Positions 7,931 to 36,348 of a stretch of 46,426 nucleotides of DNA are shown one piece after another. The notes under the pieces are model-generated. The model was not told the DNA's origin and did not search any database. It worked only from the letters and a program-made list of their open reading frames with translations. How positions within the stretch are numbered: position 1 is the stretch's first letter; each line of letters starts with the position of its first letter. The translations under genes and the position numbers were made by a program. The DNA comes from an uncultured Rhodobiaceae bacterium (GTDB lineage Bacteria > Pseudomonadota > Alphaproteobacteria > Parvibaculales > Parvibaculaceae). The DNA lies in NCBI GenBank assembly GCA_913057645.1, contig CAJXOU010000018.1:1-46426 (forward strand). The letters run 5' to 3'.

Positions 7931-8287
7931 CTACAATTCGCAGCGATGGTGGCCCGAAGGATCGTCCACCGTCATGACGGCGCTGTAGCCGTCGCGCGCA
8001 TCGTGGCTCACCTCGGTGATCGAGACCACGGCATCGCCCGCCGGTCCGATCTCGTAGTCGCCGCCCTGGCGCACTTCGGAGGTGCCGCCGGGACCCGACT
8101 TCAGCAGGGAAAGGGAATAGCTGCCCGTCGAACCGGGAGCGCCATAGACCACGCTTTCGAGACGCATGCCCATGGAGGTTTCGATTGCCCGGATTTCGCA
8201 GGCGTCCGACATGGGCGGCGAGGCAGTGGCTGCCGCGCAGCCGAACACGAGGGGTACAAACACGAGCGATGACCATATGAGTCGCAT
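7931..8287 (-). CDS. csgH: CsgH-like curli assembly protein
   Basis: 118-residue exported protein with a signal segment (MRLIWSSLVFVPLVFGCAAATA). The compact mature domain starts at SDACEIRA. It carries the core GSTGSYSLSLLKSGPGG and TSEVRQGGDYEIGP and ends HHRCEL. The two mature cysteines near the ends could form a disulfide. This matches my recollection of CsgH, the alphaproteobacterial periplasmic protein that binds CsgA and delays amyloid formation. Context supports it: it lies 66 bases downstream of a curlin gene on the same strand. The start at 8287 has a perfect AAAGGAGC ribosome site. FGC inside the signal is a poor lipobox, so a lipoprotein is possible but less likely. Confidence 0.75.
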   Translation of the reverse strand: MRLIWSSLVFVPLVFGCAAATASPPMSDACEIRAIETSMGMRLESVVYGAPGSTGSYSLSLLKSGPGGTSEVRQGGDYEIGPAGDAVVSITEVSHDARDGYSAVMTVDDPSGHHRCEL

Positions 8288-8316
8288 TGTCTTGCTCCTT
8301 TGTGACTGCCGTCGCG

Positions 8317-8340
8317 GGAGGCGGCCCGATGGCCGCCTCC
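8317..8340 (-). promoter_or_regulatory. perfect hairpin between curlin and csgH genes
   Basis: A 10-base perfect inverted repeat (GGAGGCGGCC and GGCCGCCTCC) with a four-base loop, 13 bases after the curlin stop and before the csgH ribosome site. There is no T run, so it is more likely an attenuator or an mRNA 3'-end stabiliser than a full terminator. It could let the curlin be made in excess over CsgH. Confidence 0.6.
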
Positions 8341-8353
8341 GCACGAAAGCGTA

Positions 8354-8857
8354 TTAGTAGCCGCCCTGAATGACGACGGAGGTGTTGCCGTGACCGGTCT
8401 GGACGGTCTTCGCCTTCTGGCCGTTGCCGACCTGGATCGTGGCCGAGGTGTTGTTCGAACCGTACTGATCGGTCACCGCCTTGTGGTTGTTGCCGATCTG
8501 CGCGATGCCCGACGTGTTCGAGCGGCCGGTCTGCACCGTCGTCGCGGTGTTCCTGCGGCCTTCCTGACCCGTCACGGCATAGTTGTCGCGGCCGTACTGG
8601 TCGGTGAGGGCCGAGTTCCGGTTACCGAGCTGCTGCTGGTAGAGGTAGTTCCACTCGCCCTGCTGCACGGCCTTCGAATGGTTGCCGTTGCCATAGGTGT
8701 CGATCGTACCCTTGTTGTGGTAGCCGTTCTGCGTGAAGACGCCGGTGTTGTGCTTGCCACCCTGATAGACGGCAGCGGAGTTGCCCGCGCTGGCGCCGGT
8801 AATGCCGGCGGCAAACAAGGCTGCGATGGTGCTCGTCGTCAGTAGAAACTTTTTCAT
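8354..8857 (-). CDS. csgA: major curlin-like fibre subunit (CsgA type), 13 repeats
   Basis: 167-residue secreted protein. A signal peptide (MKKFLLTTSTIAALFAAGITGASA, first 24 residues) is followed, after one Gly, by a mature chain built wholly of thirteen 11-residue units. The last unit lacks one residue. The pattern is N-x5-Q-x-G-x2: Gly9 is kept in all 13, Gln7 in 12 (Thr in unit 3), and Asn1 in 11 (His in unit 10, Gln in unit 12). This is the half-repeat of curli subunits, which stack as beta-solenoid rungs in amyloid fibres on the cell surface. The AGGAGA ribosome site supports the start at 8857. It is transcribed ahead of csgH and divergent from a minor-curlin-like gene. No CsgG, CsgE or CsgF gene is in the window, so export must use genes elsewhere. 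Confidence 0.88.
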   Translation of the reverse strand: MKKFLLTTSTIAALFAAGITGASAGNSAAVYQGGKHNTGVFTQNGYHNKGTIDTYGNGNHSKAVQQGEWNYLYQQQLGNRNSALTDQYGRDNYAVTGQEGRRNTATTVQTGRSNTSGIAQIGNNHKAVTDQYGSNNTSATIQVGNGQKAKTVQTGHGNTSVVIQGGY

Positions 8858-8983
8858 CTCTGCATCTCCTGTTTTGGACCTGCCGACACGGCGCGTCCTG
8901 TTTGACGATGCATTTCTATCGGGATGAGCCTGAGTGCTCCCTGAAGCGCGCATTCATATTCCGTTCACCGGAGAATTTTCTTC

Positions 8984-9042
8984 TCGCCGCCGCGCGCGAA
9001 GCGAAAGCGGCGATGCTCCGGGCTTCATGAATGCCCCATGAA
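8984..9042. promoter_or_regulatory. inverted repeats in the divergent curlin promoter region
   Basis: The 273-base gap between the two curlin genes holds two symmetric elements. TCGCCGC...GCGGCGA spans 8984-9013 and TTCATG-N7-CATGAA spans 9024-9042. The second is a plausible two-fold operator for a shared regulator of both genes. The regulator is not identifiable here, and no clear sigma70 hexamer pair was recognised. Confidence 0.35.
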
Positions 9043-9130
9043 CATCCGCTTCAGATGGCGATCAGCGGAGACGGGATAGAACGCGGGAATGTTTTTCCAC
9101 GGCCTGATCCGGCAAGAACGGGAGAGAATC

Positions 9131-9619
9131 ATGAAACGGTCGATCAATGTGATTTTTGGCGGGATGCTCGCAGCGCTCGTATCTGTGTCCGCGGCCTGGG
9201 CAGGGAGCGCGGCAAGCGTCAATCAGACGGGCGACGACGGCGTTACCCTCGTGGTCCAGAGGGACGGAAAGCCCGCCCGGGTGGAAACCGCGATCAATCC
9301 GGCGCAACAATTCATGCTGAAAAAGAAGGCGCGTGCCGCCGTGAAGCAGGCATCGAGGCCGAGAAGCGCCAGGGGCGGAAAATTCGGCAGCCGGGCTGCG
9401 CGCTGCAATCCTCTCGGCGGCAGCGGGTTGGCGTTTGTCGGCCAGAACGGGGTTGGCAACAGCGCTGCGTTGACGCAGAAGGGCGCCCACAACGTGGCAG
9501 GAATCATTCAGGACGGAAACGGCAACAAGTCCCATATCGTGCAAAAGGGCAAGGGACACTTCGCCGAAACGATCCAGGCGGGGAACAACAACAGCGCCTA
9601 CGTCATTCAGCGTTGTTGA
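9131..9619 (+). CDS. minor curlin-like subunit, possible CsgB-type nucleator
   Basis: 162-residue secreted protein with a signal peptide ending AAWA (residue 24). Two curlin units follow at 26-47, then a Lys/Arg-rich linker (about 62-92, with 11 basic residues). Six more 11-residue units with the Q7/G9 pattern run from 99 to 162. Cysteines lie at 92 and at the very C-terminus (162). It shares repeat grammar with the neighbouring curlin but breaks it with a basic insert, as expected of a nucleator or surface anchor like CsgB. That role is inferred. GGGAGAG supports the start at 9131. It is divergent from the csgA-csgH pair and ends 15 bases from the converging ABC exporter gene. Confidence 0.78.
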   Translation: MKRSINVIFGGMLAALVSVSAAWAGSAASVNQTGDDGVTLVVQRDGKPARVETAINPAQQFMLKKKARAAVKQASRPRSARGGKFGSRAARCNPLGGSGLAFVGQNGVGNSAALTQKGAHNVAGIIQDGNGNKSHIVQKGKGHFAETIQAGNNNSAYVIQRC

Positions 9620-9634
9620 TGGTGCGACGGAGCG

Positions 9635-11509
9635 TCAGCTTCCCGTCAGGTCCTGCACCTGCAGTTCGTACAATGTCTTGTACAAACCGCCTTTCGCCAG
9701 AAGTTCCTTGTGCGATCCGAATTCGCGCACTTCGCCATCCGCGAGCACGACGATCCGGTCGGCCTCGCGGATGGTCTGGAGGCGGTGGGCGATGATGATC
9801 GACGTGCGGCCCTCGGTGACCTTCGACAGCGCATCCTGAATGATGAGTTCGGTTTCCGTGTCGATGCTGGCCGTCGCTTCGTCGAGAATGAGGATGTCCG
9901 GGTTCATCGCCAGCACGCGCGCAAAAGCCAGAAGCTGGCGCTGGCCGTGACTGAGGTTGCGCCCGCGCTCCGTAAGCACCGTGTCGTAGCTCTGCGGCAA
10001 CATCCGGATAAAGGGGTCTGCATGAACGAGACGCGCCGCCTCGCGCGCCGCTTCGCGCGTAATCGCCGGGTTGCCGAGCGTGATGTTGTCGTAGACCGTG
10101 CCGGAGAAGATGTGGAAATCCTGCAGCACCACGCCGACGCGCTTTCTGATTTCGGCCGGTTCGACATCCATGATGTCGACGCCGTCAATCAGGATCGAGT
10201 TCGGCGGGACGTCGTAGAAGCGGCAGAGCAGCCGGACGAGGCTGGTCTTCCCCGAGCCCGTCGGCCCGACGATGGCGATGCGTTCGCCGGGAGCGATGTC
10301 GAAGCTCACATCCTTCAGGATTGTCGTTCCGGGCGTGTAGCCGAAGGTCAGATGGTTGAAGGTGACACGGCCCTCGACATTCCCGGGCAGGGACTTCGGT
10401 GACGCCGGCACCGCCAGCGCTTCATCCCAGTCTAGCGCCTGGAAAATGCGTTCGCAGCTCGCCATGGCGCGGAAAACGACGTTCCACTGCTCGCCCATCG
10501 CCACGATCGGCCGGAACATCATGTCGGCGAACTGCGCAAAGAGGATCACACTGCCGAGCGTGGCGGCGCCGGAGAGGACATGCTGTCCGCCGAACCAGAC
10601 GATGGCGGCGATGGCGAGAAACGCCATGCTGTCCATCGAGGGGCCGTAATAGCTCTCGATCCGGACGGCGAGATTTTCCTGCTGCCGGTTCTCCTCGTTG
10701 ATCGCGTTATAGCGCTCGAAATTGATCCGCTCGCGGCCGTAGAGCTGGACGACCTCGATGCCCGACAGGTTTTCCTGCAGGTTCTCGTTGAGCCGCGACA
10801 TGGAGGACCGGATGTTGCGATAGACCTGTCGTGAGACGACACGGAATATCCATGTGGCCAAGGCGGCGACCGGCAGAAGCACAAGCAGCTCCAGCGTCAG
10901 CGTGGGATTGAGTGCCATCATCACCGAAACGGCGGCAAAGAAGGGCACGAACTCGCCGAGCAGCACGCCGAATCCGGCAAGCAGTTCGAACAGTGTTTCG
11001 ATGTCGTTGGTGAGGCGCGTCATGACCCTGCCGACGGCCACCCGGTCGTAGAAGCTTGATGGCAGCTTTTCGAGATGCGCGAACAGATCGCGCCTCAGGT
11101 CGCGCAATGCGTGGAGAACGGTTCGCGCCAGCATGGTGCGGAAACCGTGACCGAAAAGGGCCCAGAGAACCGTCCACAGTGCAAAAAGCAGGCAGGCCGA
11201 GAATATCGGATGGAGATCGAAGCTGGCGGCGAGAAAGGAGTTGAGCGCCTTTTGTCCGAAGTCCGGCGCTCCGACATCGGATGTCGGCAGCAGGATACCG
11301 TCCACCACGACGCGGCTGACGACCACGGGGGCGAGAACCGCGGCGCTTGCAGCAAGGAGGACAAAGGCGATCGCCATGAACCCTTGCCTGCGATAGGGTC
11401 GCTTCCACTTCAGGAGGCGGACGACGAGACCGAAATCGAATCCGCGCGTTTCGATGTCGTCGTCGAAGGCGGCATAGTTCCTCTTCTTTCCGGTCGCGGA
11501 TTCCGTCAT
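9635..11509 (-). CDS. ABC exporter half-transporter, second subunit
   Basis: 624-residue fused membrane/ATPase half-transporter of the MsbA/LmrA exporter type. Six transmembrane helices lie in about residues 35-350, followed by a nucleotide-binding domain. The domain has Walker A GPTGSGKTSL, an altered signature LSHGQ (normally LSGGQ; His codon at 9947-9949), Walker B LILDEATASID with the catalytic Glu kept (9878-9880), and the H-loop AHR. Its ATG overlaps the stop of the upstream half-transporter by four bases, so the two are translationally coupled and almost certainly form a heterodimer. The substrate is unknown: lipid, drug or peptide are possible. The btaAB lipid genes diverge from this operon. 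Confidence 0.9.
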   Translation of the reverse strand: MTESATGKKRNYAAFDDDIETRGFDFGLVVRLLKWKRPYRRQGFMAIAFVLLAASAAVLAPVVVSRVVVDGILLPTSDVGAPDFGQKALNSFLAASFDLHPIFSACLLFALWTVLWALFGHGFRTMLARTVLHALRDLRRDLFAHLEKLPSSFYDRVAVGRVMTRLTNDIETLFELLAGFGVLLGEFVPFFAAVSVMMALNPTLTLELLVLLPVAALATWIFRVVSRQVYRNIRSSMSRLNENLQENLSGIEVVQLYGRERINFERYNAINEENRQQENLAVRIESYYGPSMDSMAFLAIAAIVWFGGQHVLSGAATLGSVILFAQFADMMFRPIVAMGEQWNVVFRAMASCERIFQALDWDEALAVPASPKSLPGNVEGRVTFNHLTFGYTPGTTILKDVSFDIAPGERIAIVGPTGSGKTSLVRLLCRFYDVPPNSILIDGVDIMDVEPAEIRKRVGVVLQDFHIFSGTVYDNITLGNPAITREAAREAARLVHADPFIRMLPQSYDTVLTERGRNLSHGQRQLLAFARVLAMNPDILILDEATASIDTETELIIQDALSKVTEGRTSIIIAHRLQTIREADRIVVLADGEVREFGSHKELLAKGGLYKTLYELQVQDLTGS

Positions 11510-13500
11510 GCGTCGTCCCCCACATCCTTCTCAAGCGCGCGCTCGAGCTCTTCGCGCCGCCCCTGCTGGCGTTCCAGCGTCGCGTAGAGGCCGTTCCGGG
11601 CAAGCAACTCCGCATGCGTGCCGGTTTCGGCGACCCTTCCTTCGTCCAGAACGACGATGCGGTCCGCATGGCGCGCCGTGGAAACGCGATGAGACACCAT
11701 GATCGTGGTGTGCCCCTGCCGAAGCGATTTCAGGCGGGAGAGAATGAATTCCTCGGTTTCCGTATCGACGGAGGAGAAGCAGTCGTCGAGGAGCAGGACC
11801 GGCGTCTCGCGAATGAGGCCGCGCGCGAGGCTCGCCCGCTGCTTCTGTCCGCCTGAAAGCGTGACGCCGCGCTCGCCGACGATCGTTTCCAGCCGGTCGG
11901 GAAACCGCCGGATCGTCGTTTCGAGGTCGGCGCTTTCGGCGGCACGCCAGACGTCGTCCGTCGCGCGCTCCGGATTGTCGTAGGAAATGTTCTGCGCGAT
12001 ATGGGTGGCAAAGAGGAACGGATCCTGCGGCACCATCGCGATCTGTCCCCGCACTTGCGTGACGGGAAGCATGCGGATGTCGCGTCCGTCGAGATAGATG
12101 GTGCCGGGCGGGGGATCGAGCAGGCGCACGATGAGCCGCAGCAACGTCGACTTGCCCGAGCCGACGCGGCCGAGCAGCGCAATCATCTCTCCCTTTCTGA
12201 CCTCAAGCGACACGTCCTTGAGCGCGGGCCAGCCTTCACCTTTCTGCGCGGGGTGGGTGTAGGAGAGATGGTTGATCGTGAACGCGCCGCCGATACCCTT
12301 GAGCGGAGCGGCGTCCGGCGCATCGCGGATTTCGGGCTCGTGATCGAGAATCTCGAAGATGCGCGCCGCCGCGGACCCGCCGCGCTGAAACAGCGTGATC
12401 ATGATGCCACCTTCACGGATGGGGGCGAGCATCATGTTCAGATAGAAGATGAAGGCGGTGAATGTGCCGAGCGTAAGCGTGCCCTCGATGACCTGCAGGC
12501 CGCCATAGCCGACAACCATCAACGTGGTGAAGCCGGTTGCGACCAGCATCGCGGAGGTGAGGCCCGAGTTGAGGAACATCAGCTTGTAGTAGTTGCCGGC
12601 ATAGTGATCGGACGTCGCCTCGAAACGTTCGGTCTCCCGATCCTCCTGAGCATGAGTCTGGATGGTGCGGATGCCGTTCAGGTTTTCCTGTACCTGCGCA
12701 GAGAGCGAGGAAAAACCCTCCTGAACGAGCGTCGACTGGTCGAAGATCCGCCGGGCGATGATCCAGCCGATGACGGCGAAAACCGGGAGGGCTGGCAAGA
12801 GCACCAGCGTGAGGGACGGCGACTGATAGAACATGAAGAGGAAGGCGATGATGCCGGAAAAGCCGAGCACGAACAGGAGCCGCGTTCCCATGCCGATCAG
12901 TTGACGGATCAGCGTGATGTCGTTGATGGCGCGCGCCATCAGGTCACCTGTCGTGAACTTCGAGAAAAACAGCGGGCCCTGAAGCTCCAGGTGCCAGTAG
13001 AGGCGCTGGCGAAGTTCGTAGGCGGCATTGACGCCGACTTCGCGCACCAGGCGGCGGCCGATATTGAAGGAGATATAACGCAGCACCATCAGCCCGAGGA
13101 TTGCAAGGGCGGGAAGGGCGAGGCGCGTGTCGCCTGCGGCAATCCGGTCGATCCCCATCTTGAGATAGAGGGGCATGATGGCTTCTAGAAGACGGCCCGC
13201 ATTGATGAGCGACATGCCGCCCCAGAAGTGCCATTTGTGCCGCTGGACGAGCGGCACCAGCCGCCAGAGAGGGCTGGAGGCGGAATGGCCGTCCGTCCGG
13301 GGCGTGGGCGCGCGCGATTCCACGGGGGAACATCCGGTTTTGGGCGGGCCTCGGCCGCGCCGTGCTGGGCTGGCATCGCCCTGTCCCGAAGGCCGGGCGG
13401 GATGCCGGTTCCGGACGGGGAGACGGTGTTTCCTGGGGTTTTGCAGATCGTTCGCATAACTATACGCCTCTCCTCCCGATTCGGAAGCGGGCGGAACCAT
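11506..13500 (-). CDS. ABC exporter half-transporter, first subunit
   Basis: About 664-residue half-transporter with six membrane helices and an ATPase domain. It has Walker A GRVGSGKSTLL, a canonical LSGGQ signature and the H-loop SHR. Its Walker B reads LLLDDCFSSVD, where the catalytic glutamate is replaced by Asp (11782-11784). It pairs with the downstream half (LSHGQ, intact Glu), so both motif changes would fall in the same ATP site. The N-terminus is uncertain. The ATG at 13500 adds ~90 poorly ordered, Pro/Arg-rich residues and leaves only 23 bases before the divergent btaA ATG. A GTG at 13323 would give 605 residues, closer to family length. Confidence 0.85.
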   Translation of the reverse strand: MVPPASESGGEAYSYANDLQNPRKHRLPVRNRHPARPSGQGDASPARRGRGPPKTGCSPVESRAPTPRTDGHSASSPLWRLVPLVQRHKWHFWGGMSLINAGRLLEAIMPLYLKMGIDRIAAGDTRLALPALAILGLMVLRYISFNIGRRLVREVGVNAAYELRQRLYWHLELQGPLFFSKFTTGDLMARAINDITLIRQLIGMGTRLLFVLGFSGIIAFLFMFYQSPSLTLVLLPALPVFAVIGWIIARRIFDQSTLVQEGFSSLSAQVQENLNGIRTIQTHAQEDRETERFEATSDHYAGNYYKLMFLNSGLTSAMLVATGFTTLMVVGYGGLQVIEGTLTLGTFTAFIFYLNMMLAPIREGGIMITLFQRGGSAAARIFEILDHEPEIRDAPDAAPLKGIGGAFTINHLSYTHPAQKGEGWPALKDVSLEVRKGEMIALLGRVGSGKSTLLRLIVRLLDPPPGTIYLDGRDIRMLPVTQVRGQIAMVPQDPFLFATHIAQNISYDNPERATDDVWRAAESADLETTIRRFPDRLETIVGERGVTLSGGQKQRASLARGLIRETPVLLLDDCFSSVDTETEEFILSRLKSLRQGHTTIMVSHRVSTARHADRIVVLDEGRVAETGTHAELLARNGLYATLERQQGRREELERALEKDVGDDA

Positions 13501-13523
13501 TTCCGTCACACAGGCTTCACGCA

Positions 13524-14891
13524 ATGGCTGTAGCAGCAGACGAGGCGGGCGCCGCGTCGCGGACGGGACGGCCCGCGTTCAGCGAACGGAGTGTGCCCTT
13601 GTCCGAAACCGCAGCCGAAACGACCATCGCCCCCTTTGTAGAAGGCGATGTACCTGCCAAAGGGCGGCGCGATGTCAGGCGGCGGCTCAGTGCGGCAGTC
13701 CATCGGCACAAGCCGGTCTCGCGTGAAGGGCTCACCGAACGGATATTCACCTGGCTCTTCACGGGTCTCGTCTATCCGCAGATCTGGGAGGATCCGGAGG
13801 TCGATATCGAGGCGATGGCGCTCGAACCCGGCATGAAGCCAGATACGCGCATCGTCACCATCGCGTCCGGCGGCTGCAACGCGCTCTCCTATGTCACGGC
13901 GGCGCCGGTCAAGGTGACGGCGCTGGACCTCAACCCGACCCATGTAGCGCTGGTGCGCCTCAAGCTTGCGGGTGCGGCGAACCTGCCGGACTACGATCGC
14001 TTCTTCCGCTTCTTCGGCGAAGCCGACCGGCGAGAAAATCTCGAGGAGTACCGGCGCTTCCTGAGGCCGCGGCTCGACGCCACGACGCGCACCTACTGGG
14101 ACCGGCGCCCGGCGGGTTTCCGCCGCCGCATCGCCCTCTTCGCGCGCGGCTTCTACCGCCACGGGCTGCTCGGCTACTTCATCGGCGCCGCCCATCTCGC
14201 TGCGCGGGCCTATGGCGTGCGGCTTGGTGCGGTGCTTGATGCGCCGACACTCGAAAGCCAGCGCCGTTTCTTCGACGAGAAGCTTGCGCCGCTCTTCGAA
14301 AAGCGCGCAATCGCATGGATGACGGACCGGCCTTCGACGCTTTACGGTCTCGGCATTCCGCCCGCGCAATACGAGGCGCTGGCCGGAGGACGGCCGATGC
14401 GTGAGGTTCTGCGCGAAAGGCTGGAGCGGCTCACCTGCGGCTTCCCGCTCTCGGAAAACTACTTCGCCTGGCAGGCCTTTGCCCGCGCTTACGCGCCGGG
14501 CGGCAAGGGCCCGCTGCCACCGTACCTGAAGCGCGAGAACTTTGCGGTGTTGCAGGCGCGCGCAAGCGATGTCGAGGTGCTGAACGAGAGCTTCACCGAC
14601 CATTTGCGCAAGGCGGGCGAGGCGAGCCACGACCGCTACGTATTGCTCGACGCCCAGGACTGGATGACGGACACGCAGTTGAACGACCTCTGGTCACAGA
14701 TCACGCGCACGGCTCGGCCTGGAGCGCGCGTGATCTTCCGCACGGCAGCAGAGCCCACACTGCTCCCGGGCCGGGTCGACGATGCGATCCTAGCCTGTTG
14801 GGACTACCGAGCGGAGGAGTCGCTTTCCTTCACGGAACGTGACCGCTCCTCCATCTATGGCGGCTTTCACCTCTATGTGCTGAAGGATTGA
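13524..14891 (+). CDS. btaA: BtaA: S-adenosylmethionine:diacylglycerol 3-amino-3-carboxypropyltransferase
   Basis: 455-residue DUF3419 protein. BtaA moves the 3-amino-3-carboxypropyl group of S-adenosylmethionine onto diacylglycerol to make diacylglycerylhomoserine, the first step of DGTS betaine-lipid synthesis. Visible features are FTGLVYPQIWEDPEVD, the nucleotide-binding-like IASGGCNALSYV (about 114-125) and LDLNPTHVALVRLKLAG (about 134-150). The helical middle region and a C-terminal DAQDWM...FRTAAEP section follow. The Rhodobacter protein is about 416 residues; the extra ~40 here are an N-terminal extension from the chosen ATG, which has a poor ribosome site, so the true start may lie further in. 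btaB follows after five bases, which strongly supports the call. Confidence 0.88.
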   Translation: MAVAADEAGAASRTGRPAFSERSVPLSETAAETTIAPFVEGDVPAKGRRDVRRRLSAAVHRHKPVSREGLTERIFTWLFTGLVYPQIWEDPEVDIEAMALEPGMKPDTRIVTIASGGCNALSYVTAAPVKVTALDLNPTHVALVRLKLAGAANLPDYDRFFRFFGEADRRENLEEYRRFLRPRLDATTRTYWDRRPAGFRRRIALFARGFYRHGLLGYFIGAAHLAARAYGVRLGAVLDAPTLESQRRFFDEKLAPLFEKRAIAWMTDRPSTLYGLGIPPAQYEALAGGRPMREVLRERLERLTCGFPLSENYFAWQAFARAYAPGGKGPLPPYLKRENFAVLQARASDVEVLNESFTDHLRKAGEASHDRYVLLDAQDWMTDTQLNDLWSQITRTARPGARVIFRTAAEPTLLPGRVDDAILACWDYRAEESLSFTERDRSSIYGGFHLYVLKD

Positions 14892-14896
14892 GAGCC

Positions 14897-15568
14897 ATGA
14901 GCGCGGTCGGGCATGGCGAGCAGGATCATTCTCACCTGATGGACCGTGTCTACCGGCATCAGCGCCATTTCTATGACCTGACGCGCCGCTACTACCTGCT
15001 CGGCCGCGATCGACTGATCGGCGAACTGGATGCGGAGCGTGGCACGAGGGTGCTGGAAGTCGGCTGCGGGACGGGATGGAACCTCATCCGCGCGGCAAAG
15101 CTCTTCCCGGAGGCCGAATTCTACGGCATGGACATCTCGCACGAGATGCTCGCGACGGCTCGGCGCGCGGCAAGGCGCCAAGGCGCCGATCTGCACCTCG
15201 GCTACGGCGACGCGACACGCTTCAATCCCTATGCGAGTTTCGGCGTCAGCCGCTTCGAGCGCATCTACATGTCCTACACGCTGTCGATGATTCCGGACTG
15301 GCAGGCAACGCTCGCGCAAGGCATCTGCAACCTTGCGCCTGGGGGGAGCCTTCATATCGTGGATTTCGGCGAGCAGGAGCGTCTGCCACGCTGGTTCCGC
15401 TCGGCTCTCAGGGCATGGCTTGCGAAGTTCCATGTGAGCCCGCGCGGTGAACTTGAGCGAGTGCTCCGCGCGCTTGCGGCGAACCTCGGCGCCGATCTCC
15501 AGTTTCGCTCGCTCTATCGCGGCTATGCCACCTATGCGATCCTGCGATTGCCGCTTCAGGGCCGATGA
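14897..15568 (+). CDS. btaB: BtaB: diacylglycerylhomoserine N-methyltransferase
   Basis: 223-residue class I SAM-dependent methyltransferase with motif I VLEVGCGTGWN (about residues 51-61). FYGMDISHEML is at strand 2, YMSYTLSMIPDW at motif II, and GGSLHIVDFGEQ near motif III. BtaB adds three methyl groups to the homoserine nitrogen to give the betaine lipid DGTS. The N-terminal HSHLMDRVYRHQRHFYDLTRRYYLLGRD is typical of this group. The start at 14897 has AAGGA upstream, overlapping the end of btaA; an in-frame TTG at 14888 is less likely. In several bacteria these lipids replace phospholipids under phosphate limitation. No Pho-box was recognised here. Confidence 0.88.
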   Translation: MSAVGHGEQDHSHLMDRVYRHQRHFYDLTRRYYLLGRDRLIGELDAERGTRVLEVGCGTGWNLIRAAKLFPEAEFYGMDISHEMLATARRAARRQGADLHLGYGDATRFNPYASFGVSRFERIYMSYTLSMIPDWQATLAQGICNLAPGGSLHIVDFGEQERLPRWFRSALRAWLAKFHVSPRGELERVLRALAANLGADLQFRSLYRGYATYAILRLPLQGR

Positions 15569-26223: not shown

Positions 26224-27063
26224 ATGGCGTATGGAACGGCGACTGTCAGAAAGCTGACACCGGGCTGCGGCGCGGAAGTGCTGGGCGTCGATCTGAGGGA
26301 TCCGAGCAACAGCGACATGGAGACGATCCGCGCCGCCTATCGCGACTATGGCGTGATCTTCTTCCGCGATCAGGAATTGACGCCGGAGGAGCACATTTCC
26401 TTTGCGAGGCGCTGGGGCGAAATCGATATCAACAAGTTCTTTCCCGCGAACGTGCGGTACCCGGAAATCGCCGAAGTCCGGAAGGAGAAGGAACAGAAGG
26501 TCAATATCGGCGGCGGCTGGCACACCGACCATTCCTACGACGCGGAACCGGCGATGGGCTCGATCCTCGTGGCGCGGGAACTTCCCGAAACCGGCGGCGA
26601 TACGCTCTTCGCCGACATGTACAAGGCTTACGACGCACTTTCCGACGGTCTCAAGGAGACGTTGTCGGCGATGAAGGCCGTGCATTCGAACGAGGCGGCT
26701 TTCGGCGCAGGCGGATTCTACAAGTCGAGCGACCAGAGCGGCGGCTTCAAGGGCGAGAGCCTCGTCGGCCAGGCGGTCCACCCGGTCGTCATCACGCATC
26801 CCTTGAGCGGCCGGAAGGCGCTCTACGTGAATCCCGGTTTCACAACGCATTTCGTCGGCTGGGGCACGGAAGACAGCCAGGCTTTGCTCGACTATCTCTA
26901 TGCCCATGCCACCCAGCCGCAGTTCACCTGCCGCTTCGAATGGCGCGATGGATCGATTGCCTTCTGGGACAACCGCGCGACCTGGCATTTCGCCGTGAAC
27001 GATTATCACGGTCACAAGCGGCTGATGCACCGCATTACCATAGGCGGCGGACCGCTCCAGTAG
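26224..27063 (+). CDS. TauD/TfdA-family Fe(II)/2-oxoglutarate dioxygenase (copy 1)
   Basis: 279-residue dioxygenase. The iron facial triad is visible as His100-x-Asp102 (GGWHTDHSY) and His255 (ATWHFAVND), with Arg270 as the 2-oxoglutarate anchor. GDTLFADMYKAYDAL and HPLSGRKALYVN are family hallmarks. Such enzymes hydroxylate small acids, for example taurine, alkyl sulfates, 2,4-D or carnitine precursors, with succinate and CO2 as by-products. The substrate here is unknown. A strong AGGAGG-like site (GGGAGGAAATC) precedes the ATG. A second, non-identical copy follows 63 bases later, probably in the same operon, divergent from the Crp/Fnr gene. Confidence 0.9.
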   Translation: MAYGTATVRKLTPGCGAEVLGVDLRDPSNSDMETIRAAYRDYGVIFFRDQELTPEEHISFARRWGEIDINKFFPANVRYPEIAEVRKEKEQKVNIGGGWHTDHSYDAEPAMGSILVARELPETGGDTLFADMYKAYDALSDGLKETLSAMKAVHSNEAAFGAGGFYKSSDQSGGFKGESLVGQAVHPVVITHPLSGRKALYVNPGFTTHFVGWGTEDSQALLDYLYAHATQPQFTCRFEWRDGSIAFWDNRATWHFAVNDYHGHKRLMHRITIGGGPLQ

Positions 27064-27126
27064 AGCCGAAGCCGGCGATATGGCACTCTCTCCCCAAGGC
27101 TCGGAAACGGGGCAGGGGAGGGAGAC

Positions 27127-27996
27127 ATGTCGCAGACAGCCGTAAAATCGAACAGCATTCGGGTAACGCCCAACGAAAGCGGCTTCGGCGCCGAGATCAC
27201 CGGCCTCGACCTGTCGAAGCCGCTGCCGCCGGACTCGCTCGACGCGGTGAACCGGGCATGGGCGGATCATGCCGTCGTCTGGTTCCCCGATCAGCCGCTT
27301 ACCCATGATGAACTCGAGGCTTTCACGCTCCAGATCGGCCCCTTCGGCCATGACCCCTTCATCGCGCCGATGGAAGGCCGCCCGCACATTCTCGAACTCC
27401 GCCGCGAGCCGGACGAAAAGGCGCGAAACTTCGGTGCGGGCTGGCATTCGGACTGGAGTTTCCAGGACAAGCCGCCAGCCGCGACGCTCCTCCATTCGAA
27501 GGTGGTACCGCCCGTCGGCGGCGACACGCTCTATGCGGACTGTACGCGCGCATATGAGGCGCTCTCCGGCACCATGAAACGATTGCTGGAAGGTCTGACC
27601 GCGATTCATAGCGCTGCGCTGCCCTATGGCACCAAGGGTGTTTTCGCGCAGGAACAGGAAGCCCGGACGATGAAGATCATCGTCAGCGAAGAGGCGGAGA
27701 AGACCTGCCCGCATCCTCTCGTCCGCACGCATCCCGTTACGGGACGCAAGGCGCTATACGTGAGCCCGGTCTACACCGTCGGTATCGAGGGCATGACACG
27801 GGAAGAATCGGCGGCACTGCTTGGCTTTCTTTACAGCCACATGACGAAGGATGAGTTCATCTATCGCCACAAGTGGAGGCCGAACATGCTCACCATGTGG
27901 GACAACCGCTGCACGCTGCATTTCGCTGACGGCGGTTACGACGGGCATCTGCGCGTCATGCACCGGACGACGGTGGCGGGTGATGTTCCTCATTAA
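27127..27996 (+). CDS. TauD/TfdA-family Fe(II)/2-oxoglutarate dioxygenase (copy 2)
   Basis: 289-residue dioxygenase with His107-x-Asp109 (AGWHSDWSF), His265 (CTLHFADGG) and Arg280. The family segment GDTLYADCTRAYEAL is present. It differs throughout from the copy upstream (different N-terminus and substrate-side residues such as HSDWSF against HTDHSY), so the two likely act on different substrates or successive intermediates. GGGGAGGGAGAC precedes the ATG. It is second in the presumed Crp/Fnr-controlled operon. No terminator was found after it. Confidence 0.9.
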   Translation: MSQTAVKSNSIRVTPNESGFGAEITGLDLSKPLPPDSLDAVNRAWADHAVVWFPDQPLTHDELEAFTLQIGPFGHDPFIAPMEGRPHILELRREPDEKARNFGAGWHSDWSFQDKPPAATLLHSKVVPPVGGDTLYADCTRAYEALSGTMKRLLEGLTAIHSAALPYGTKGVFAQEQEARTMKIIVSEEAEKTCPHPLVRTHPVTGRKALYVSPVYTVGIEGMTREESAALLGFLYSHMTKDEFIYRHKWRPNMLTMWDNRCTLHFADGGYDGHLRVMHRTTVAGDVPH

Positions 27997-35490: not shown

Positions 35491-36348
35491 ATGAGCCAGG
35501 CTGCAGCTGCGCCACAAACGGCGCCGTTTTCGGTGTCGCCCCTGACCCCGACGATCGGTGCCGAAATCGGCGGCATCGACCTGTCTAAGCCAGTGGACGG
35601 CGCCATGCTGGCTTCGCTTCGCGAAGCGCTGCTCGAATGGAAGGTGATCTTCTTCCGCGATCAGGAGATCACGACGGAGGAACACCTCGCTTTTGCCCGT
35701 CAGTTCGGCGAACTCGAAGTGCATCCCTTCGCCCCCCACAAGGAAGGCTACCCGGAAGTCCTCGCCATCACACACAACCGCGAGCGGCCGGGCAAGGAAA
35801 ACAAGTGGCACAGCGACGTGACGTGGCGGGAATGCCCGTCGCTCGGCTCCGTGCTCCGCGCGGTCGAGGTTCCGGATGTCGGCGGCGACACGCTCTTCTC
35901 CGATATGTATGCCGCTTATGACGGTCTTTCCGACGAGGTGAAAGAGAGGATCGACGGCGCCATCGCGATCCACGACTTCGCGCATTTCCGCAAGATGATG
36001 CAGAAGCTCGGAAAGACACCGGAAGAAATCGAGGAGATGAATCGGAAATATCCGATGGTCGAGCATCCCGTGGTACGCACTCATCCGGAAACCGGCCGGA
36101 AAGGCATCTATGTGAACATTGCCTTCACCCAGCATATCGCCGGCATGGACAAGGCGGAGTCCGACGCACTGCTCGCGCATCTCTACGCGCAGGCCGCTGT
36201 TCCCGAATATCAGTGCCGCTTCCGCTGGCGGAAGAACTCGATAGCCTTCTGGGACAATCGCGCTTGCCAGCACTATGCGGCATCCGATTACTGGCCGGCG
36301 GTGCGCAAGATGGAGCGCGTAACGATCATCGGCGACCGGCCTCACTGA
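35491..36348 (+). CDS. TauD/TfdA-family Fe(II)/2-oxoglutarate dioxygenase (copy 3)
   Basis: 285-residue dioxygenase with His107-x-Asp109 (NKWHSDVTW), His261 (ACQHYAASDY) and Arg276 or Arg272 for 2-oxoglutarate. NKWHSDVTWRECPSLGS and GDTLFSDMYAAYDGLS place it near TfdA and alpha-ketoglutarate-dependent taurine or aryloxyacid enzymes. The substrate is unknown. GGAGGAGGAGAAC precedes the ATG. It stands alone, divergent from the IclR gene, and unlike the other two dioxygenases is not in the Crp/Fnr operon, so the three copies are probably under separate control. Confidence 0.9.
   Translation: MSQAAAAPQTAPFSVSPLTPTIGAEIGGIDLSKPVDGAMLASLREALLEWKVIFFRDQEITTEEHLAFARQFGELEVHPFAPHKEGYPEVLAITHNRERPGKENKWHSDVTWRECPSLGSVLRAVEVPDVGGDTLFSDMYAAYDGLSDEVKERIDGAIAIHDFAHFRKMMQKLGKTPEEIEEMNRKYPMVEHPVVRTHPETGRKGIYVNIAFTQHIAGMDKAESDALLAHLYAQAAVPEYQCRFRWRKNSIAFWDNRACQHYAASDYWPAVRKMERVTIIGDRPH

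Follow-up and report, generated by a model that had tools for sequence, protein, structure and literature searches.

How are curlin genes controlled, and by what route do their products leave the cell, in bacteria without CsgD, CsgE and CsgF? Dueholm (2012; PMC3521004) left this question open for the Alphaproteobacteria; extracts of that survey describe the class as lacking csgC, csgD and csgE, with csgF also missing from about half of the genera, and many of its members as carrying only curlin subunits and csgH, the latter always adjoining csgA/B. Among the 43279 genomes with CsgA in a 2023 survey, likewise consulted in extract (PMC10192328), 1839 encode CsgH and 1033 lack CsgG. Here we analyze a locus of this already known type in a genome of 3.75 Mb (193 contigs, 99.99% complete), within a stretch of 46,426 nucleotides from contig CAJXOU010000018.1 that we refer to as the window. 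What we add is a 38-bp promoter element, a cysteine pair in the second curlin, the typing of the only CsgG-family channel as HfaB, and a charge pattern between chaperone and curlin. These findings make the question directly testable.

Organization and distribution of the locus

The locus comprises three genes. On the minus strand the gene for the major curlin, curlin A (8354..8857), is followed after a gap of 66 nt by csgH (7931..8287); the gene for a second curlin, curlin B (9131..9619), lies 273 nt away on the plus strand and is read divergently. This is the compact curli-like arrangement described in the first-pass annotation, which had placed all three genes correctly and whose repeat counts for curlin A (13 units of 11 residues, with Gly in 13/13, Gln in 12/13 and Asn in 11/13) we confirm. 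The neighbors on one side are genes for a glutathione transferase, tRNA-Pro and tRNA-Gln, and on the other, just past curlin B, a pair of ABC exporter genes that each encode membrane and ATPase domains (9635-13524, minus strand). Elsewhere in the window, the plus strand carries a DUF3419 gene (364 bits) and, after it, a methyltransferase gene (13656-15568), a pair that presumably resembles BtaA-BtaB of betaine-lipid synthesis, and three genes for TauD/TfdA-type dioxygenases within 46 kb (PF02668, 229-252 bits; 26224-27996 and 35491-36348).

The genus of the host genome is probably Parvibaculum; ten CsgH relatives were found on named contigs, all from MAGs, six of which bear the name Parvibaculum, one Parvibaculaceae, one Rhodobiaceae and two only Alphaproteobacteria. 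In the 27 genomes of the genus csgH is present in 13 and curlin repeats in 16, a remnant in genome G017 being included in both counts; neither was found in the remaining 13 of the 40 family genomes compared. Three genomes (G025, G026 and G034) have a curlin but no csgH; their second curlin lies near a contig end and the place of csgH is missing. Their curlin B is likewise flanked by two large frames of the ABC exporter type. The remnant in G017 is the product of a deletion, in which the end of curlin B overlaps a start-less csgH on the opposite strand (L060:4588-5090). The three genes are conserved as a unit, and the locus is patchy in the genus, decayed in one genome and intact in the window.

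Properties of the encoded proteins

Curlin A has a signal peptide ahead of its repeat units and is basic, with a pI of about 9.6. It scores 56.4 bits against PF07012, and curlin B 38.9 bits (cut-off 20.7). When the mature curlin A is compared with itself at a lag of 11, 43/132 residues are identical, whereas 10,000 shuffles averaged 11.3 and never exceeded 25. Its 10 relatives are 77-93% identical at constant length, and its profile matches the curlin-repeat protein of PDB entry 8c50 (E 8e-22). With the equivalog models of E. coli CsgA and CsgB (NF007470 and NF007506; cut-offs 160 and 165 bits) curlin A scores at best 61.2 bits and curlin B 46.4 bits. As judged by these sequence models, both proteins are curlins but not equivalogs of the enterobacterial CsgA and CsgB.

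In curlin B a signal peptide is followed by one N-terminal repeat, a basic linker, Cys92, six 11-residue units and the C-terminal Cys162. Its 10 relatives are 31-83% identical, and the linker varies in length among them. The cysteine pair is conserved: the C-terminal residue is Cys in 14/14 intact copies from the genus, with a partner Cys 70 or 71 residues upstream in 12/14 and 73 and 87 residues upstream in the others. In a structure model of curlin B (pLDDT 75.9) the repeats contain strands, and the best PDB match, though a weak one, is 8enq, the CsgA fibril of E. coli (probability 0.92, E 0.048, TM 0.25/0.36). In our reading curlin B would be a minor subunit, for nucleation or anchoring, and its cysteine pair may be functional, bonding within or between subunits. 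The two-cysteine trait is not general to second curlins, as that of G043, a genome from another family, has no Cys. Two cysteines near the C-terminus also occur in curlin A of rhizobial plasmid loci (L135-L141, L143 and L144), most of which have a second curlin-like gene after csgH that is annotated as hypothetical in R. etli CFN 42.

The product of csgH is, by homology, a CsgC-like periplasmic chaperone with a signal peptide and a two-cysteine core. Its assignment had been made to depend on a match to the CsgH profile, and the 118-residue protein scores above the cut-offs of both PF21112 (37 bits; cut-off 27) and NF041112 (67.3 bits; cut-off 35), while a profile of 12 sequences matches the CsgH structure 2n59 in the PDB (E 6e-8). 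Extracts of two papers define CsgH by two cysteines that are distant in the sequence and not in a CxC motif (PMC4838910, PMC5135000), and here C30 and C116 are far apart and invariant in 12/12 sequences. The conserved positive patch of R. palustris CsgH (K32, R45 and K47) is not matched: the window's CsgH aligns S, E and R with these residues, and a basic residue is found in the genus at position 45 in 0/11, at 47 in 4/11 and at 32 in 1/11 sequences. Because the patch is a trend in many homologues and not a defining cut-off, we did not use this mismatch against membership in the family.

In 11/11 genomes of the genus the mature curlin A is basic (pI 9.4-9.8) and the core of CsgH acidic (pI 4.2-5.5). 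This is the reverse of the published relation, in which, according to extracts of PMC4838910, CsgH and CsgC exceed CsgA in pI by more than 2 units and need positive charge to act against E. coli CsgA. In a wider comparison the pI of the CsgH core was below that of curlin A in 22/23 pairs, which are not independent of one another, 11 of the 23 coming from one genus and 7 from another; the exception is G346, for whose CsgH the plasmid search returned no relative. A general co-variation of charge between CsgH and curlin was rejected on a rank correlation of 0.07 across 7 lineages. The charge pattern is a warning that the electrostatic model of CsgH action, for which E. coli CsgA was the substrate, may not fit cognate pairs.

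A promoter element shared by both curlin genes

Alignment of the intergenic region from 11 genomes of the genus revealed an element before each curlin gene, TGAAYG-N5-TGAAY-N6-TTCAG-N7-TCAG, made up of four half-sites about 11 bp apart. The window contains exactly two exact copies, one per promoter, at 8930..8967 on the minus strand (72 nt upstream of the start codon of curlin A) and at 9028..9065 on the plus strand (65 nt upstream of that of curlin B), where 0.00 are expected from 100 shuffles at up to 3 mismatches. Across the 11 genomes 22 sites fit at 0 to 2 mismatches, 16/22 of them exactly, the pattern having been drawn from these same sites. Each copy in the window is followed after 11 nt by a -10-like TAGAA (8914..8918, minus strand, for curlin A; 9077..9081, plus strand, for curlin B), and a TARAA box stands exactly 11 nt after the element across the 22 promoters, with A at position 13 in 22/22, T at position 12 in 20/22 and A at positions 15 and 16 in 19/22 each. 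As this spacing is fixed, the last half-site sits at the position expected of a -35 box.

The element extends beyond the genus. Each of the two divergent curlins of G043 has a copy with 1 mismatch, 70 nt from its start codon. The Rhizobium plasmid loci, eight close relatives of one another, carry it ahead of curlin A in 8/8 (2 to 4 mismatches); a second curlin was identified in seven of them, and the element precedes it in 7/7 (1 to 2 mismatches). The TARAA box recurs in the two G043 promoters and ahead of the rhizobial curlin A genes displayed, and is weaker before the rhizobial second curlin. Sinorhizobium sojae has the element before curlin A (2 mismatches) and not before the second curlin; in G177 and G042 the copies, at 67-68 nt, are inverted and weak (3 and 4 mismatches); G275 has a 3-mismatch copy tied to no gene; and Bosea and G346 have none at up to 4 mismatches. 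At this same threshold no copy was found in 88 other loci around CsgG-family and HfaA genes that served as a control (313,343 bases, about 268,000 of them non-redundant, both strands). Control loci L087-L089 hold curlin-like frames, and the element is therefore not a mark of every curlin gene. Within the loci that carry it, the element looks like the putative site of one regulator for both curlin promoters. We found no report of it among the titles and abstract openings of the open-licence papers listed, which leaves its absence from the literature unproven.

A single CsgG-family protein in the genome

The first-pass annotation had described the locus as being without secretion genes. This holds for its surroundings, but not for the genome, which encodes exactly one CsgG-family protein (PF03783), on a contig other than that of csgH and the curlins; a complete lack of CsgG, which had been named, together with a lack of surface fibers, as an outcome that would speak against the curli reading, is thus not what we find, at least in the sense of the Pfam family. 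The protein types as HfaB, with 390.8 bits against NF037935 (cut-off 300) compared with 35.7 bits against the E. coli CsgG model (cut-off 505). In the genome-wide search that had been suggested for CsgG, CsgE and CsgF, the best matches to the latter two were below cut-off, at 11.6 bits for CsgE (cut-off 25) and 13.4 bits for CsgF (cut-off 25.8), and these weak matches, one each (E 0.9 and 0.17, respectively), were judged to be due to chance. The canonical curli (type VIII) secretion set of CsgG, CsgE and CsgF was not found in this genome. Between the two options offered earlier, distant export genes or another route, our data point to a mixture: there is a distant CsgG-family gene, yet it is hfaB and not a csgEFG set.

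HfaB is also found here on its own. In Caulobacter, according to extracts of PMC6707917, HfaA is curlin-like, and both HfaA and HfaD depend on HfaB to be targeted to the outer membrane. HfaA was found in 0/27 genomes of the genus at E 0.01 and in 2/40 across the family, and HfaD in 0/27 at E 0.001 and, over its cut-off, in 0/40 of the family, with two weak matches in a sister genus; of HfaABD only HfaB was found in the genus. No hfaA adjoins hfaB in the five neighborhoods of the genus that were read (that of the window's own genome and those of G013, G015, G024 and G033). In a sister genus within the family, hfaA immediately precedes hfaB (L056:4104-5610).

The distribution of HfaB was compared with that of the curlins within the genus and with that of CsgH across the class. 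A PF03783 match is present in 25/27 genomes of the genus, comprising 16/16 curlin-bearing and 9/11 curlin-free genomes (Fisher p 0.16). By a local profile 15/16 of the curlin-bearing genomes type as HfaB, the sixteenth, G020, being a partial match that was left untyped; the proteins of the 9/11 curlin-free genomes also type as HfaB, which must therefore do something else too. The 38-bp element was found at hfaB in 0/39 stretches from 33 genomes (up to 4 mismatches). A role for HfaB as a dedicated partner of the locus is supported neither by its distribution in the genus nor by the promoter element. In 385 genomes of the class CsgH is over cut-off in 6, PF03783 is present in 67 and HfaB in at least 20 (NF037935 at E 1e-89 or below, a value close to its cut-off), this last count being a lower bound because typing covered most PF03783 matches above about 40 bits and excluded weaker and some second matches. 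HfaB is present in 4/6 CsgH-positive genomes compared with 16/379 others (Fisher p 7.5e-5, uncorrected for relatedness); two of these four belong to one genus, so that they represent three lineages. Two csgH-bearing genomes, G177 (91% complete) and G346 (96% complete), lack any PF03783 match, and on a Bosea plasmid csgH lies near a CsgG-like protein (167.3 bits against the CsgG model, cut-off 505, compared with 27.8 bits for HfaB); the exporter is therefore not the same everywhere.

A structure model of HfaB is of low confidence (pLDDT 53.9), with PDB matches led by CsgG (E 1.6e-11), and a sequence profile (5 sequences) matches only CsgG chains in the PDB; both add little beyond homology. We propose HfaB as the exporter because one genome combines a channel that has lost its customary partners with curlins that have no customary channel. 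The titles and abstract openings of the same open-licence papers contain no report of curlins exported by HfaB, a result that does not prove the absence of such a report.

Discussion

Taken together, we consider it slightly more likely than not that the window carries a functional curli locus of the CsgH type, in which only subunits and chaperone are left, with export through HfaB and shared control of its promoters. Curlin A and curlin B, whose signal peptides were read by eye, would cross the inner membrane by Sec, and in the periplasm the acidic CsgH would prevent the basic curlin A from folding. Both curlins would then exit via HfaB, the sole member of the CsgG family that the genome search found, with no CsgE or CsgF involved. 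Curlin B may be the minor subunit that starts or anchors the fiber, and its two cysteines may serve to close or link the short block of repeats. A single DNA-binding protein could switch both divergent promoters together through the 38-bp element, and this control would stand in for CsgD, which is reported to be missing in Alphaproteobacteria.

Export may instead proceed through a channel outside the CsgG family, with HfaB a leftover or serving another substrate, such as a holdfast-like polysaccharide anchor, and we give this reading a substantial chance, if one short of even. It would fit the presence of a PF03783 protein in 25/27 genomes of the genus irrespective of curlins, the lack of hfaA beside hfaB in the five neighborhoods and of HfaA and HfaD elsewhere in the genus, the lack of the shared promoter element at hfaB, and the CsgH-positive genomes G346 and G177 that have no PF03783 match. 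The scanned neighbors of the locus (a TonB-dependent receptor, the glutathione transferase, two tRNAs and the two ABC exporter genes) include no known curlin channel, however, and HfaB is commoner in CsgH-positive genomes of the class, by the counts uncorrected for relatedness given above. HfaB is our best candidate for the exporter.

For the promoter element, the possibility that it is a LexA (SOS) operator arises from its first half, which can read GAAC-N7-GAAC. Extracts of PMC3091678 give GTTCN7GTTC and GAACN7GAAC as LexA boxes of Alphaproteobacteria, the latter matching this half, and an exact GAACN7GAAC lies within 8/11 curlin B elements. As the box is found in only 1/11 curlin A elements, we rate LexA as the weaker rival; moreover, TTCAG and TCAG, the half-sites of the second pair, would be superfluous in a LexA box, yet each of their positions is conserved in 19 to 22 of the 22 sites. 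We think it unlikely that LexA is the regulator, and quite improbable that the locus is being lost and no longer functions in much of the genus. Loss would explain why 11/27 genomes, some of them incomplete, have no curlin repeat at E 0.001, and why G017 retains only a deletion scar near a truncated ABC gene; against it stand the three intact frames in the window, the constant length and high identity of curlin A among its relatives, and the conservation of both promoters. The reading of a functional locus under shared control can be taken one step further, to a joint proposal that we hold tentatively and regard as rather doubtful in its entirety: that one regulator, bound to a 38-bp array over the -35 region, runs CsgD-less curli from Parvibaculum to Rhizobium, and that in Parvibaculum the fibers exit by HfaB and are started by a cysteine-tied curlin. 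If the element is a true operator, it offers a handle on the missing regulator in rhizobia too, as the plasmid curlin-csgH loci share it.

Comparison with known systems places the locus with the CsgH-type loci of Alphaproteobacteria, which, in extracts of PMC3521004 and of the paper on 2N59 (PMC4838910), have csgH beside curlins, no csgC, csgD or csgE, and often no csgF. It is also like four annotated Rhizobium plasmid stretches in which a curlin, csgH and a second curlin are consecutive and the PLSDB tables, which are incomplete, annotate no csgEFG within about 3-5 kb. Unlike the CsgH-type loci, it has two divergent curlin transcription units, a cysteine-paired second curlin, and an acidic CsgH with a basic curlin. 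With HfaABD of Caulobacter, where HfaA is described in extract as curlin-like, it has in common that the sole CsgG-family protein found is HfaB (NF037935); the differences are that neither HfaA nor HfaD was found in the 27 genomes of the genus, that hfaB is on another contig than csgH and the curlins, and that the curlins here carry full PF07012 repeats. As in csgBAC/csgDEFG of E. coli, there are two curlins and a small periplasmic inhibitor, the latter by homology. In contrast to E. coli, CsgE and CsgF are not found over cut-off, CsgH replaces CsgC, and curlin A is basic (pI 9.6), whereas CsgA is acidic (pI 4.5). Curlin B is basic, like CsgB (pI 9.3 in K-12), and the curlin genes are divergent here, while those of E. 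coli form one operon.
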